Part shown: piece by piece, positions 17,722-23,526 of the stretch
Position numbering within the stretch: position 1 is the stretch's first letter
Layout of the letters: every line of letters begins with the position of its first letter
Assembly: GCA_029262415.1 (NCBI GenBank)
Contig: JAJCZL010000034.1
Span: 62,001-126,000 of the forward strand
DNA: 64,000 nt
Source of the DNA: Deltaproteobacteria bacterium
GTDB lineage: Bacteria; Desulfobacterota; Binatia; UBA1149; JAJCZL01
Direction: 5' to 3'
Program-made: the position numbers and the translations under genes
Notes under the pieces: model-generated
The model's database searches: none
Seen by the model: only the letters and a program-made list of their open reading frames with translations
What the model was told of the DNA's origin: nothing

Positions 17722-20718
17722 ATGCAGGGAGCGGATCAACTACGCCGTATCGTATTCATAACGCTGGCCATGCTGGTCGCGAGCCTTGTTTTTGTCGCTC
17801 GAGTGGGCGCGGAGCCCGGCCAGGTGCGGACTGTCCGCAAGATCAGCGCTACCCACGGGTCGCTGCGTGCGCCGATCGAGGCGCGCGACCAATTCGGTGC
17901 GGCAGTGGCGGCGATTGGCGATCTTGACGGTGACGGGCTCGATGAGATAGCGGTCGGTGCGGTCGGAGATGACGACGGGGGATCGGGAACCGGTGCGGTT
18001 TGGATCGTTTCTCTGCACAGCGACGGTTCCGTTAAGGGGCAAAAGAAGATCAGCGCCGCGTCCGGCGGCTTCTCGGGCGCGCTCAGCGCTGCGGATCTAT
18101 TTGGGCGCTCGGTGACCGCGCTCGGTGATCTCGACAACGACGGGATCCCAGACATCGCTGTCGGTGCTTCGCAGGATGACGACGGCGGCCGCAACAACGG
18201 TGCCGTATGGGTTATGTTTCTCAACTCCGACGGGTCTGTAAAGCGACATACGAAAATCAGTGAGACCAGCGGCGGGTTCAAGGGATTGCTGGACAGCTCT
18301 GACAACTTCGGAGCCTCGGTGGCCGGACTCGGCGATATCAACGGCGACGGTACGCCGGATCTCGCTGTCGGCTCACCTTTCGACGATGACGGCGGTAACG
18401 ATCGCGGGGCTGCTTATGTCTTGTTCCTCACACCCTCCGGCACGGTTTCTGGATATCGTAAGATTGCTGACGGTGGCGGCTCATTAGACGGGCACCTGCA
18501 CAACAACGACCGATTCGGCGAGGCGCTGGCGAGCGCCGGTGACATCAATGGCGACGGCATCGGAGATCTCGTGGTCGGTGCCCCGCGCAGCGACGAGGTC
18601 GGCTCCAACAGCGGCGCGGTTTGGGTGTTGCAACTGACCGCCGACGGTTCAGTTGCTGTGCAGACTTCGATCAACGGTAGCGGCGGCAACCTTCCCGGCG
18701 TGCTCAGCAGCAACGACAGGTTCGGCTATGCGGTGGCCAAGATCGGTGACCTGGACGGCGACGGGCGATCGGAGATCGCTGTTGCAGCTAACGGCGACGC
18801 CGGCGGTGGGTTCGAACGCGGAGCCTACTATGTTCTCGGACTGAAGGACGACGGCTCGGTGCAGTGGTCGCAGAAAGTTTCGCATCAGACCGGTGGCTTT
18901 CCCGGTCTGCTCGACGACAAAGACAACTTTGGGTCGGCATTGGCCGGTTATCCAGACCTCGATGGTGACGGCAGCCCGGAAATTCTCGTCGGCGCGTTAA
19001 ATGACGACGACGGCGAGTCGGACCGCGGCGCGCTCTACGTCCTCGGCTTGGACAGAGCGGTGTGCGGCGACGGTGTTCTCGAGGGGTCCGAACAGTGCGA
19101 CGATGGCAACACCGCCGGCGCTGACTGTTGTTCGCCGGACTGCGTTTTCGAGCCCGCACGCGCTTCGTGCAGCGACGGAAATACCTGCAACGGCGCGGAA
19201 GCCTGCGATGGGATTGGCACGTGTGTTGCCGGTACTGCACTGGTTTGCGACGACGGAAATGTTTGCACCGACGATCTCTGCGACGCGCTATCAGGCTGTG
19301 TGATCAGGAACAACACCGCATCGTGCGAAGACGGGAGCTCTTGTACAGTAGGTGATACCTGTGCCGCAGGGGTTTGCACGGCAGGGGCGACTGCTGATTG
19401 TAACGACGGTAACGTTTGCACCGACGACGCCTGTAGCGAGTTGATCGGCTGTCTCAATACTCCCAACGCCGTGACCTGTGACGACGGGAACTTATGTACC
19501 GTCGGCGACACCTGCAGCGCAGGGACCTGCACCGCGGGCGAGCCGCTCGTTTGTGATGACGGCAACTTGTGTACTGACGAAACGTGTGCGCCGAGCCGGG
19601 GCTGTGTTGTCTCCGCCAATACTGTGCCGTGCGACGACTCAAACGTCTGTACCGATGGTGATGTCTGCTCGGCTGGGACGTGTGTGGGCGGCGATCCGGT
19701 TGTGTGTGACGATGCCAATGCGTGTACTGATGAGACGTGCGACCCCGTAGGCGGGTGCGCGGCGGCACCGAACGACGCTGCGTGCGATGACGGTGATCCG
19801 TGTACCGCCGAGACCGTGTGTTCCGCGGGCGCATGCACAGTTGCTGCGACCGATGTATGCGATGATGGGAACCCGTGCACCGATGATGCCTGTGACGCTT
19901 CGGCTGGTTGTACCCACAGTAACAACCAAGGCACGTGCGACGATGGAGATCTCTGTACCACCGGCGAGGTCTGCTGGGATGGCGAGTGCGGCGGGGGCTC
20001 GCGTCTGGTTTGCGATGACGGCAACCCTTGCACCGACGATTTCTGCGACATGGAGATCGGTTGCGCCGTTGCCGATAACGCAGACCCCTGCGATGACGGC
20101 AACGCGTGTACCTCCGGCGACCGGTGCACCCGGGGTGCTTGCGCAGCCGCAGGGCCGCTGCGTTGCGATGACGGCAACGTGTGTACCGACGACACGTGTG
20201 AACCCTCGGTTGGCTGCCTGGTGGTGAACAATGCCGCGCCATGTGACGACGGAAATCTCTGTACTGCCGACGACGTCTGCCGCGAAGGCGAGTGCGCACA
20301 GAGCGAACCGGTCGTATGTGACGACGGCAATGTTTGTACCGATGACTTTTGCGACCCGGCGCAGGGATGCTTCGCCGTAGCCAACACCGCACCGTGTGAC
20401 GATCGAGACCTTTGCACCTTCGCCGACCGCTGTGCCGATGGCGAATGCACCGCCGGTATCGCGGCCGACTGCGACGACGGAAACGTTTGCACCGAAGACG
20501 CATGTAACTTCGCGATTGGCTGTATCTACGAGGTCAACGTGCAGGACTGTGACGACGATGATTCGTGCACGCTCGCCGACCGCTGTCTGGAGGGGGCGTG
20601 CGTAGGCGGCGACCGCAATTATTGCGACGAACTTGCGGCCCACGCCGGCGATCTAGATTTCGGCAACGTGATGGCCGATGTGCAGGGCCTGGCAGTCGTT
20701 TTTCCGGAGCCCGAGTGA
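17722..20718 (+). CDS. secreted FG-GAP propeller protein with tandem Cys-rich CDDGNxCTDD repeats
   Basis: Exported protein of 998 residues. The signal segment VFITLAMLVASLVFVARVGA is followed by six FG-GAP repeats to about residue 440 (FGAAV, FGRSV, FGASV, FGEAL, FGYAV, FGSAL), each with a DxDGDG-type calcium loop such as GDLDGDG, as in integrin-like beta-propellers. A myxococcal-type Cys motif, CGDGVLEGSEQCDDGN, then leads into about 19 four-cysteine units of 25-26 residues. A short acidic tail ends the protein, with no obvious cell-wall or sorting signal. It is probably an extracellular or surface adhesion/binding protein; the ligand is unknown. Repeat number may vary between strains. Confidence 0.9.
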   Translation: MQGADQLRRIVFITLAMLVASLVFVARVGAEPGQVRTVRKISATHGSLRAPIEARDQFGAAVAAIGDLDGDGLDEIAVGAVGDDDGGSGTGAVWIVSLHSDGSVKGQKKISAASGGFSGALSAADLFGRSVTALGDLDNDGIPDIAVGASQDDDGGRNNGAVWVMFLNSDGSVKRHTKISETSGGFKGLLDSSDNFGASVAGLGDINGDGTPDLAVGSPFDDDGGNDRGAAYVLFLTPSGTVSGYRKIADGGGSLDGHLHNNDRFGEALASAGDINGDGIGDLVVGAPRSDEVGSNSGAVWVLQLTADGSVAVQTSINGSGGNLPGVLSSNDRFGYAVAKIGDLDGDGRSEIAVAANGDAGGGFERGAYYVLGLKDDGSVQWSQKVSHQTGGFPGLLDDKDNFGSALAGYPDLDGDGSPEILVGALNDDDGESDRGALYVLGLDRAVCGDGVLEGSEQCDDGNTAGADCCSPDCVFEPARASCSDGNTCNGAEACDGIGTCVAGTALVCDDGNVCTDDLCDALSGCVIRNNTASCEDGSSCTVGDTCAAGVCTAGATADCNDGNVCTDDACSELIGCLNTPNAVTCDDGNLCTVGDTCSAGTCTAGEPLVCDDGNLCTDETCAPSRGCVVSANTVPCDDSNVCTDGDVCSAGTCVGGDPVVCDDANACTDETCDPVGGCAAAPNDAACDDGDPCTAETVCSAGACTVAATDVCDDGNPCTDDACDASAGCTHSNNQGTCDDGDLCTTGEVCWDGECGGGSRLVCDDGNPCTDDFCDMEIGCAVADNADPCDDGNACTSGDRCTRGACAAAGPLRCDDGNVCTDDTCEPSVGCLVVNNAAPCDDGNLCTADDVCREGECAQSEPVVCDDGNVCTDDFCDPAQGCFAVANTAPCDDRDLCTFADRCADGECTAGIAADCDDGNVCTEDACNFAIGCIYEVNVQDCDDDDSCTLADRCLEGACVGGDRNYCDELAAHAGDLDFGNVMADVQGLAVVFPEPE
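19168..20625 (+). repeat. coding tandem repeat, about 19 units of 75-78 bp
   Basis: The C-terminal half of the FG-GAP protein is an alternating array of two related four-Cys units. One has the form CDDGNVCTDDxCxxxxGC and the other CDDGNLCTxxDxCxxGxC, together about 51 residues or 153 bp. The DNA words TGCGATGACGGCAAC and GTGTACCGACGA recur with synonymous changes, so the array is old enough to have diverged at the DNA level but is strongly held at the protein level. Confidence 0.9.
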
Positions 20719-20756
20719 GCACGTTGCCGTCGCCGGCCTGACCAAAACTCAGCCCA

Positions 20757-20782
20757 AAAAACCCGCGGAATAGGCGGTGGCC
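20757..20782 (-). terminator. candidate Rho-independent terminator of the 56-residue protein gene
   Basis: On the minus strand, directly after the stop codon of the small gene, CCACCGC is followed by a short spacer, GCGGG and a run of six T. The stem is short and has one bulge, so this is a weak but well-placed candidate between two convergent genes. Confidence 0.4.
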
Positions 20783-20783
20783 G

Positions 20784-20954
20784 TCAGTCTGCGATTGCCA
20801 CCGGCAGTGGCACTCTGATGAAGCTCTTCACGTCTACGATTCTTACGTCGACGACGCCCTCCGCGTCGGCCGATTCGATGCCCTGTCCGCAACGCACGGC
20901 GAGCAGGGCGGCGATGATCGTCAAAATCACTTTGGTGTAGCGGTCGGTCGGCAT
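20784..20954 (-). CDS. small exported or membrane-anchored protein, 56 residues
   Basis: Short gene on the minus strand, starting MPTDRYTKVILTIIAALLAV and ending LPVAIAD. GGAGGG lies five bases before the ATG, an excellent ribosome-binding site, and a possible terminator follows. One hydrophobic helix (residues 8-20) is followed by DAEGVVDVRIVDVKSF. Proteins with the pattern DRxTKxxLTxIAxxL, then VDVRIV and LPV, are common as uncharacterised small proteins in several bacterial phyla; this is recognition from memory, not a search. It could be an anchored periplasmic peptide. Function unknown. Confidence 0.65.
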   Translation of the reverse strand: MPTDRYTKVILTIIAALLAVRCGQGIESADAEGVVDVRIVDVKSFIRVPLPVAIAD

Positions 20955-21057
20955 GGCATCCCTCCGGCCCCGGAGGCCACCAGGTCATCACAGCGCAGCG
21001 TGCGCGGCAAGCTCTAGGTAGCCTCGCGGATTTCGTCTGCGTGGAGGTACTCGAAAA

Positions 21058-21411
21058 ATGTCTCGACTGGTGGTGCTGGAACTACGTACTCAGCCCTCAT
21101 CCTCAACTGTGAGGTCGACCTCTAGAATCGCGATCAGGTCGTCGTACCGGCGCATGTATTGGTATCAACAGCACGTACAGTTTTTGTATTGGCTCACCGG
21201 GGGCTTGGCGCGGCCCGTCTATAGAAGTTGGCTGCTCGCCCGCGAGCGTGAGCATCTGATCAACATCCGGTTCGGCGCGCTTGACTATCGCACGGCATGG
21301 TCGCGCTGCTCCGATTGGCTTGCGGATGTTGAGTTCTCCGTGTTCATGGAAAGAATCTTTGCCGGTCAGACTGACGAGGCTCTAGACTCGGCGCGTAGGC
21401 TCGCCGCCTGA
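21058..21411 (+). CDS. hypothetical protein, weakly supported
   Basis: Open frame of 117 codons. The first 30 residues are Ser/Arg-rich and look non-coding. The part from ATG 21151 (MYWYQQHVQFLYWLTGG) to the end is more protein-like, with aromatic and charged helices (SWLLAREREHLINIRFG, DWLADVEFSVFMERIF). I recognise no family. If real, the start is more likely 21151. It sits at the edge of the accessory pocket. Confidence 0.35.
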   Translation: MSRLVVLELRTQPSSSTVRSTSRIAIRSSYRRMYWYQQHVQFLYWLTGGLARPVYRSWLLAREREHLINIRFGALDYRTAWSRCSDWLADVEFSVFMERIFAGQTDEALDSARRLAA

Positions 21412-21777
21412 TTTTCCCGCCCCCTCATCTGGGGCGAAGTCCAAAATTAGAAACAGGGTACGTGTACCACAGCTGCTCGTTAGGGGGATCGGAAACTCGT
21501 TTTCGTTGTTCTCAATGACTTTGTTTTCGACTATAAGCGTAGTCTGAGCGGGTCGGATGTCTGCACAACGGGCGCGTCGGGAGGTGGTGCTTGCTTATCG
21601 GCGTTGGCGTCGATCATGCGATACGCGAGGCGCACGCAGGTTTCCGAAAACGAACCGAGGAATTTACGAGGCGAAGAGTTTGCGACATGACGCGTGAGTC
21701 GGCGGATAGAGGGGTTATCAGTGATTCTGCGCGGCCTTACGCGAAGGCGTCCGACGAGAATACTTCGAAATGAGGTG
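21412..21777. other. intergenic accessory DNA, no convincing gene
   Basis: About 370 bases between a doubtful ORF and the repeat-flanked cassette. A 6-bp GC hairpin (CGCCCC/GGGGCG at 21418-21436) has no T-tract. An open frame of 60 codons at 21591-21773 has no ribosome-binding site and an unlikely composition. The 7-mer GGTTATC near 21713 is inverted relative to GATAACC inside the first direct repeat, about 70 bases away. Confidence 0.4.
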
Positions 21778-21819
21778 GTGTCCGATAACCAGCCTTACGT
21801 CGCCCTCTGCGTCGCGATA
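21778..21819 (+). repeat. left direct repeat flanking the AT-rich cassette
   Basis: Begins GTGTCCGATAACCAG and ends CCCTCTGCGTCGCGATA. The copy at 22644-22686 shares the first 11 bases exactly and GCCCTCTGCGTCGC near the end, with a diverged middle. The two copies bound the only markedly AT-rich segment of the window, consistent with a recombination or insertion boundary. It does not match a consensus integron attC site clearly. Confidence 0.6.
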
Positions 21820-21834
21820 CGCATATAAGCGTAT
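21817..21834. repeat. inverted repeat ahead of the cassette gene
   Basis: ATACGC, six-base AT loop, GCGTAT forms a perfect six-base stem. It lies 20-40 bases upstream of the cassette start codon, within the leader, so it could be part of a promoter, operator or recombination site. Evidence is structural only. Confidence 0.4.
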
Positions 21835-21856
21835 TCATAAAAACTCGGAGGTGGCA

Positions 21857-22619
21857 ATGAAGAAAATATTGCATTTTGCGTAGCTCTGCTGACAGGATTT
21901 ATACTCACAATTACTCTTGCTCATTCTGCAGAGGCGCAGTGTGAATGGATATGCGACGCAAATGGACAGCCTGTTCTTCTTCCCATTGAATGTCGTAATC
22001 AAACCATCTCTCACCGCACTGTCGACCAGACGAAAACTAACATCCCAGACATAACGACGTCGACTGAGCGAATGCAACATATTTTTGCGAATGCTGATGA
22101 CGGAAAAACAATAAACAATACAAGAACGGTCAGAGGATCCGCTATTATTCTAGAAAGATGGTGTGACGCAAACAACCGTATACACACGAAAACAACATTA
22201 CTGCTTGCCAAAAAAACTGTATTAAATTACTGTCAAACCATAAGCGAACAAAACATTGCAATGTCGAACTCATGTTTAAAATCACCGATTCGCCTGCAGG
22301 GAGGGGCACGGTCATTCATGAAGACCTCAAGAGGAGAGACATACGACGATTTGGCAACGTCATAACCATTCAATCCAAGCAGTTTGGAGAAATTATTATT
22401 GATGGTATTGGTGCTGTGCTAGATCAAGCGACACGAACGTTCAGCCGAGTTGCAGGTGACAAATTTTGTTTCATTGATATTGCACGAACTTTCATTCTTG
22501 AACCCCACTCGAATTCACTGCCGGCGTTCTTTCCAGAAGACACAAATTGGAATTCTGAATGGATTACCAATAAAAATACGTTTTCCCACGCGTATTTCTG
22601 CGCCAAAATACTGGGATAA
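21857..22619 (+). pseudogene. AT-rich gene for a secreted protein, apparently broken by two frameshifts
   Basis: ATG 21857 follows GGAGG at a five-base spacing. After eight codons the frame stops, but reading one base over from 21880 gives VALLTGFILTITLAHSAEAQ and continues to a TAA at 22363. A third frame, open from at least 22170, ends at 22619 with FCAKILG. Adding one T in the TTTT run near 21877 joins MKKILHF to the signal peptide. A second one-base change between about 22180 and 22260, for example at the A6 run near 22211, joins the rest into a protein of roughly 250 residues with paired cysteines (CEWICD, WCDANN, NYC). I know no homologue. The codon choice (AAA, ATT, ACA, AGA) is unlike all neighbours, which indicates transfer. 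Real decay and indel errors in the assembly cannot be told apart here. Confidence 0.55.
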
Positions 22620-22643
22620 CATTGTCGAAAGATATCGTGAACC

Positions 22644-22686
22644 GTGTCCGATAAGCAGTTTTTCGCCTGCCCTCTGCGTCGCAATA
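22644..22686 (+). repeat. right direct repeat flanking the AT-rich cassette
   Basis: Begins GTGTCCGATAAGCAG and ends CCCTCTGCGTCGCAATA, 24 bases after the last cassette codon. It repeats the sequence at 21778 in the same orientation, and GC content returns to the window norm within about 40 bases. Confidence 0.6.
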
Positions 22687-22722
22687 AATTTGCAAATGCG
22701 CTCTAGCGCTTGATACCACACA

Positions 22723-23526
22723 CTATTTCGGGTCGGAGAACTCCGGCGCGCGCTTCTGCATGTTCGCCGCGATCGATTCGAGCTGGTTGGGTGAGCCGAG
22801 TAACCTGCCCTGCAACGCCGCTTCTAACTTCAAGCCGCCTTTGGGCTCGAGGATTCGCGATTGATCAAGCAGGTTCTTGCCCGCGCGGATCGCGTCGGGC
22901 GACTTACCCGCAATCAGGTGGGCCATTTCCAGCGCCGCGTGTTTGGGGTCGTCGGCTGCGTGTGAGCACACGCCGAGTTCGACCGCTTCTGTTCCCGAGA
23001 AAATCCGCCCGGTGAAGGTGAGTTCTTTGGCGACGTCGTCGCGGACCAGGCGGCGCAGGGTTTGTGTGCCGCTCATGTCGGGGATCAGGCCCCACTTGAT
23101 CTCCATGACCGAGAGCCGTGCGTCGGGTTTGACGAAACGGATATCGGTGCCCAGCGCGATCTGCAGTCCGCCGCCGTAGCAGTGGCCATGAACGGCGGCG
23201 ATCACGGGTACCGGAACTTCCGTCCACACCCAGGCAGGTGACTGTGCGGTGTTGGCAATCGCGCCGTTGTCGCGGGCGAACAGCCCGGCGCCGGTCTCGC
23301 TGCCGTCTCCCATGGCCATGAAGCTGGCGAAGTCGAGGCCGGCGCAAAACGACGGCCCGGCGCCGCTCAGAACCACGGCGCGGACGGCTTTGTTGTCGGC
23401 GAGGTCTTTGCCGACGGCGGTCAGTGCCTTGAACATCGCGCCGTCAAGGGCGTTGTGCTTGTCCGGGCGGTTCATACACACATCAGCCACACCGCCGTCA
23501 ATGTTGATAGTTACGCGATCAGGCAT
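22723..23526 (-). CDS. enoyl-CoA hydratase/isomerase (crotonase) family protein
   Basis: Crotonase-fold protein of 267 residues, normal length. The oxyanion-hole signature VLSGAGPSFCAGLDFASF is near residues 52-69 and AAVHGHCYGGGLQIALGTD near 115-133. At the two usual acid/base positions the sequence reads MEIKWGLIPDMSGTQTL. The first glutamate of enoyl-CoA hydratase 1 is not conserved and an Asp occupies the second region, as in many dienoyl-CoA isomerase-like members. The product is therefore a CoA-ester hydratase or isomerase of unknown substrate. A strong RBS, GGAGG, lies just after the hairpin at 23542-23596. Confidence 0.87.
   Translation of the reverse strand: MPDRVTINIDGGVADVCMNRPDKHNALDGAMFKALTAVGKDLADNKAVRAVVLSGAGPSFCAGLDFASFMAMGDGSETGAGLFARDNGAIANTAQSPAWVWTEVPVPVIAAVHGHCYGGGLQIALGTDIRFVKPDARLSVMEIKWGLIPDMSGTQTLRRLVRDDVAKELTFTGRIFSGTEAVELGVCSHAADDPKHAALEMAHLIAGKSPDAIRAGKNLLDQSRILEPKGGLKLEAALQGRLLGSPNQLESIAANMQKRAPEFSDPK

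Follow-up and report, generated by a model that had tools for sequence, protein, structure and literature searches.

The locus lies in a 64-kb window (the whole stretch of DNA analysed) on contig C34 and consists of one broken gene, predicted to encode a secreted protein, between two direct repeats. The features are summarized in Table 1.

Table 1. Features of the broken gene and its flanking repeats, in window coordinates
Feature	Position	Strand	Remarks
Left dif-like site	21778-21805	+	XerC-like arm 21778-21788, spacer 21789-21794, degenerate XerD-like arm 21795-21805; matrix score 20.3
Left copy of the repeat tail, GCCCTCTGCGTCGCGATA	21802-21819	+	94% over 18 nt
Putative ribosome-binding site, GGAGGTGG	21847-21854	+	Assigned from sequence
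First frame, MKKILHFA and stop	21857-21883	+	Start codon ATG 21857; stop 21881-21883
Second frame, remainder of the signal peptide, then the N-terminal portion of the mature protein	21859-22365	+	Open
Third frame, C-terminal part	22167-22619	+	Open
Right site copy	22644-22671	+	XerC-like arm 22644-22654 intact, spacer 22655-22660, XerD-like arm 22661-22671 poor; matrix score 9.2, within noise
Right copy of the repeat tail, GCCCTCTGCGTCGCAATA	22669-22686	+	

A gene apparently divided among three frames

The first-pass annotation had described a first frame that stops after MKKILHFA and a signal peptide that continues one frame over, and this was borne out by the ribosome-binding site, the ATG and the long open second frame. 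The second frame reads ...CVALLTGFILTITLAHSAEAQC... and completes a signal peptide ending in ...AHSAEA-QC (judged by eye). Since the start site and the signal peptide sit in different frames, the first switch is firm; a run of four T lies at or near the possible switch point.

A second switch had also been claimed to be necessary to reach the natural end. None of 5,000 dinucleotide shuffles of the region gave two open runs of 140 codons or more on the same strand, which favours the claim; 30 of them gave a single run of 168 codons or more on either strand. When the pieces were considered separately, the stretch before the third frame opens (21881-22166) was open in some plus-strand frame in 44 of the 5,000 shuffles and the tail after the stop of the second frame (22366-22616) in 205, so that the second switch is likely but not as sure as the first, and taken alone it stands at a chance level of about 4%. 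Its likely location is somewhere in 22167-22363. By a crude coding score, which used generic amino-acid frequencies, the third frame was positive in every 60-nt block from 22277 onward; the score prefers 22240-22280 for the switch, with a profile too flat for an exact placement within the interval. The annotation had suggested a run of six A near 22211 as a possible switch point. The run actually has seven A (22210-22216), and nothing marks it out among the other candidates.

The product is, as far as its sequence indicates, a secreted protein of a family without known relatives in the collections searched. Neither part had a Pfam match at E up to 1, and no relative of either part was found in 57 other genomes (one chance match only) or in the genome contigs, viral contigs or plasmids searched. 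Similar DNA was also absent from the plasmids and, in a search with the gene only, from the phages. Nor was a joined protein seen in a relative, since neither part had any relative in these searches. A weak match in genome G036 (E = 0.0085) was rejected, being short and lying in a GC-rich open frame. The second frame also matched polyubiquitin entries in the PDB (best E = 4.2e-22); these matches were rejected as well, since they stem from chains of tandem copies, single-stretch matches being weak and two-copy chains giving E values of 0.04 or worse; the PDB matches overall were judged spurious. Structure predictions of the two halves had mean pLDDT values of 36.2 and 40.3 and were of no use.

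The composition makes the gene look foreign. Its GC content is 0.418, compared with a contig mean of 0.615 (SD 0.026, in 763-nt segments), and the 763-nt segment with the lowest GC among the 160,000 bases examined starts at 21822, directly behind the left repeat. In a scan that skipped one segment length after each find, the only segment below 0.45 overlapped the gene. Between the left repeat and the ribosome-binding site lies a perfect short hairpin, ATACGC-N6-GCGTAT (21817-21834). To the left of the module, at 17722-20718, is a protein of 998 residues in which FG-GAP repeats occur together with numerous Cys-rich DDGN repeats. A small minus-strand open frame (20784-20954) resembles a signal-bearing peptide, and short stretches of its DNA sequence recur on contigs C42 and C78 at chance-level E values. 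To the right of the module is an enoyl-CoA hydratase gene (22723-23526).

The flanking repeats and their likeness to dif

The two 43-nt repeats (21778-21819 and 22644-22686) are direct, have 36 of 43 positions equal and start 866 nt apart. The left one reads GTCCGATAA-CCAGCC-TTACGTCGCCC and the right one GTCCGATAA-GCAGTT-TTTCGCCTGCC, so that the six-base spacers agree at three positions; the likeness of the two copies extends past the dif site into the tail. The tail pattern occurs at two places in the same genome at up to two mismatches, and at three mismatches at 15 more, compared with 10 for a backwards control. The whole repeat was found in none of the 147 other genomes of the class and in no viral contig, and a shortened pattern of it occurred at three unrelated places in the genome contigs, fewer than a rough estimate of chance. 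Two further candidate copies, a partial one near 20851 and an inverted one of 10 nt near 21592, were rejected as being at chance level. The comparison gave no empty site, and in the nearest relative, G001, another gene occupies the locus.

When the genome was searched for the chromosome-dimer resolution site, 46 matches with two mismatches or fewer were obtained, of which one, on contig C1, was perfect. This dif candidate reads GTCCGATAA-GATATA-TTATGTCAACT, and the GC skew of C1 changes from positive to negative about 20 kb from it, with one positive block beyond. Similar sites were present in 55 of 148 genomes of the class at up to one mismatch, some of them without a dif-type spacer. The names of the XerC and XerD arms in this host rest on resemblance to the published dif sites in Table 1 of PMC13141974. 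The left copy has in common with the dif candidate nine bases of the XerC arm, the spacer length of six and the start of the XerD arm. The pattern GTCCGATAA-N6-TT occurs at only five places in the genome, namely at the dif candidate, at the left and right copies of the window, and at one site each on C48 and C56, these two being identical; its backwards control occurs once. The XerD gene of the genome scored above the curated cut-off (342.7 against 329.6 bits) and a XerC-like protein below it (277.1 against 335.15 bits).

We then scored sites with a matrix built from 27 dif and dif-like sites, leaving out those of the window and the spacer positions. The scan covered 647,018 positions of the genome (C1 on both strands, C34 almost completely, and portions of C46, C48 and C56), and several of these parts were chosen because they hold sites, so that the ranks do not come from a random sample. 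The dif candidate scored 39.5, followed by C1:19715 (27.8), the sites on C56 and C48 (22.9 each), C1:18236 (21.0) and, sixth of all positions, the left copy; the next unrelated position scored 13.8. The maximum was 12.6 in the reversed sequence, and the largest of 20 column-shuffled maxima was 14.5, all below the left copy. Omission of the genome's own dif from the matrix changed the results little. Judged by these scores the left copy is dif-like, whereas the right copy is dif-like only through its alignment to the left one, its own score being noise.

The annotation had called the locus a cassette. The description was right in spirit, in that one small gene without known function lies between repeats as in integron gene cassettes, and the genome does have a complete integron integrase elsewhere (TIGR02249, 441.8 bits; contig C46, L049:9847-10866). 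Unlike those of integron cassettes, however, the flanks here lack attC boxes and a strong attC-like hairpin, and the integron reading was rejected: no pair of RYYYAAC and GTTRRRY boxes within 25-140 nt of each other was present on either strand of 20700-22900, and the folding z-scores of the two flanks were -1.25 to 0.79. An attC-like sequence, judged by eye, lies beside the integrase gene on C46; that integron is apart from the locus studied here.

Modules bounded by dif-like sites in the host class

Dif-like sites with other spacers bound gene modules in the same genome and in related uncultured genomes. On contig C1 (L106:18236-19742), a module of 1,479 nt carries a gene for a metallo-beta-lactamase-fold hydrolase, closest to SoxH-related models and below their cut-offs, between two direct dif-like sites. 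Genome G003 has modules of 3,367 nt, with a secreted-looking protein, and 2,651 nt, with a BNR-repeat protein; those of G005 are about 16.0 and 3.7 kb, and those of G042 and G110 are 971 and 1,176 nt, respectively. A module protein of G003 weakly matched DUF4215, which is related to the DDGN-repeat protein at window positions 17722-20718. In G119, the region L121:4911-8383 has HigB-type and HTH genes just outside a module of 2,575 nt; between the two dif-like sites of the module lie a gene for an IS91-type transposase, one for a PemK-type toxin and a small open frame, an arrangement like that of toxin-antitoxin-bearing dif modules.

Most of these pairs are direct: all four of L171, L173, L184 and L190 (the second L190 site being weak), those of L106, L121 and L123, and the three sites on contig C56 of G005. 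At L127 and L140 the second site is weak and oppositely oriented. The core in G000, G003 and G005 is part of a longer repeat of roughly 100-150 nt, and the left flanks of the three genomes are partly alike. The flanks of the window sites showed no likeness to the longer repeats of the same genome, and by sequence the window repeats are outside this family.

A model scan for dif-like sites gave a match in 116 of 145 genomes of the class at E up to 0.5, a threshold that admits chance matches; 10 of 20 loci picked from the matches had a site above a matrix score of 16 and 10 had none, so that the count of genomes includes weak or chance matches. A dif-like site adjoins the 3' end of a transposase gene of the IS91 type (Y2_Tnp) in each of three genomes (L130:913-2325, L172:1426-3100 and L121:5781-6862), and in the window's own genome the shared repeat ends before the transposase gene. 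IS91-type elements perhaps use or mimic dif, and some of the dif-like repeats may belong to transposons. Matches to a decarboxylase in G011 and G012 (L034 and L037) contain one TAG, possibly an ordinary end.

Origin of the locus

We tentatively favour the explanation that a foreign, AT-rich gene for a secreted protein was carried in a module of about 0.87 kb between direct dif-like sites, joined to the chromosome by Xer recombination, and then decayed, while considering this somewhat short of probable. The module would have arrived as a circle or borne by donor DNA, and the Xer recombinases of the host would have joined it to a dif-like site, with direct repeats as the result. Two small lesions that change the frame would afterwards have broken the passenger gene, and decay would have reached the right-hand site as well. 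Every step of the movement by Xer is inferred, and so are the reality of the lesions as mutations and the absence of a working product. In favour of the explanation are the open frames in excess of chance, the low GC directly behind the left repeat, the direct repeats themselves, the score of the left copy, the few places at which its pattern occurs, the XerD and XerC-like genes, and the direct dif-like pairs around other modules. Several observations speak against it, namely the low score of the right copy (9.2), the limited agreement of the spacers (3/6), the shared tail beyond the dif site, the failure to find an empty site and the chance level of the second switch taken alone. Passages of PMC13141974 report recombination for pairs of sites with identical spacers or with spacers that differ at a single position; judged from these passages, excision would be unlikely now, since the spacers agree at only three of six positions and the right XerD arm is poor.

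It is also conceivable, with a lower probability, that the gene is decayed and foreign and that the repeats are the ends of another type of element or a local duplication, their likeness to dif being incidental or borrowed. A right copy within noise and a tail shared outside the dif site would fit such repeats, as would the dif-like sites of other repeats that adjoin the 3' ends of IS91-type transposase genes in three genomes, where the motifs may be transposon-borne. The left copy, however, scores far above the reversed and column-shuffled controls, and it has nine bases, the spacer length and the start of the XerD arm in common with the dif candidate.

Decay, assembly indels and slippage had been offered as alternatives by the annotation; decay fits best of the three, an assembly error is possible and phase variation is unlikely. 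That the gene is intact in the organism, and that the breaks are errors of assembly or consensus or strain variation in a mixed sample, we regard as unlikely. No further stop is met on the way through the three frames, so that the breaks are small and few in number; the genome is a draft in 83 contigs, and one candidate site is a run of seven A, all of which would agree with such errors. Frame breaks do not look general in the assembly, however, because one or more well-scoring open frames remain in 12 of the 16 gaps between picked genes of the 64-kb window; of the gaps that have none, that of 2,004 nt around the gene is the longest. The picked genes of the window are likewise open without an obvious break, and two errors in 763 nt would form a local cluster. 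It is very improbable that the breaks are functional, by slippage as phase variation or by programmed frameshifting. The runs of T and A do lie at or near possible switch points, but runs of four T and seven A are short for phase-variable slippage, the full product would require two independent slips, nothing ties the second switch to the A run, and the collections searched gave no relative in which the pattern could be seen to be kept.

Among known systems, the locus is close to the dif (pdif) modules described in Acinetobacter plasmids and chromosomes (PMC6449649, PMC12907356 and PMC13141974). As there, a gene lies away from the main dif between two repeats; the left one has a XerC-like arm, a variable six-base spacer and a XerD-like arm and scores 20.3, while the right one aligns with it and scores 9.2, noise beginning at 13.8 and below. 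Modules elsewhere in the host class hold toxin-antitoxin-type and transposase genes. In Table 1 of PMC13141974, neighbouring pdif sites are inverse (C/D then D/C), whereas here direct sites surround a single module, both copies lying on the plus strand. The degenerate XerD arms, the tail repeat outside the site and the unrelated, uncultured host class are further differences. LME-1 of Legionella, an example of the integrative mobile elements exploiting Xer (IMEX; PMC9765430), is a mobile element that carries a dif mimic and inserts at dif. The locus resembles it in having direct repeats on both sides, of which here the left is dif-like by its score and the right, altered, scores as noise, and differs in being about 0.87 kb with one broken gene, away from the dif candidate. 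Integration at a chromosomal dif near the terminus is not what was found: the dif candidate is on C1 and the window on C34, where the GC skew is positive in all eight 20-kb blocks. Passages of PMC6449649 describe extra dif sites and their mobile elements as not common in bacteria other than Acinetobacter, citing one insertion in a Proteus prophage, and a literature search by title and the start of the abstract found no report of dif modules in hosts of this kind.

Taken by itself, the broken gene, apparently foreign, decaying and from a family without known members, has modest interest. The unexpected addition, at a gene that is decayed (or mis-assembled), is at least one dif-like border, which would weigh more if a module system is real. 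Rather doubtfully, the class may carry a chromosomal system of Xer-mobilised modules, far from Acinetobacter, of which the gene in the window would be one small, decaying member. Such a system would have dif-like sites of variable spacer, often within longer repeats specific to a genome or order and mostly direct, around modules of about 1 to 16 kb with genes for secreted proteins and hydrolases and genes of toxin-antitoxin and transposase types. The gene may thus be a decaying passenger that arrived by a little-described route, and if dif-like modules are common in this unrelated class, capture of genes by the Xer recombinases of the host, which works without an integrase of the element's own, would be a more general route.
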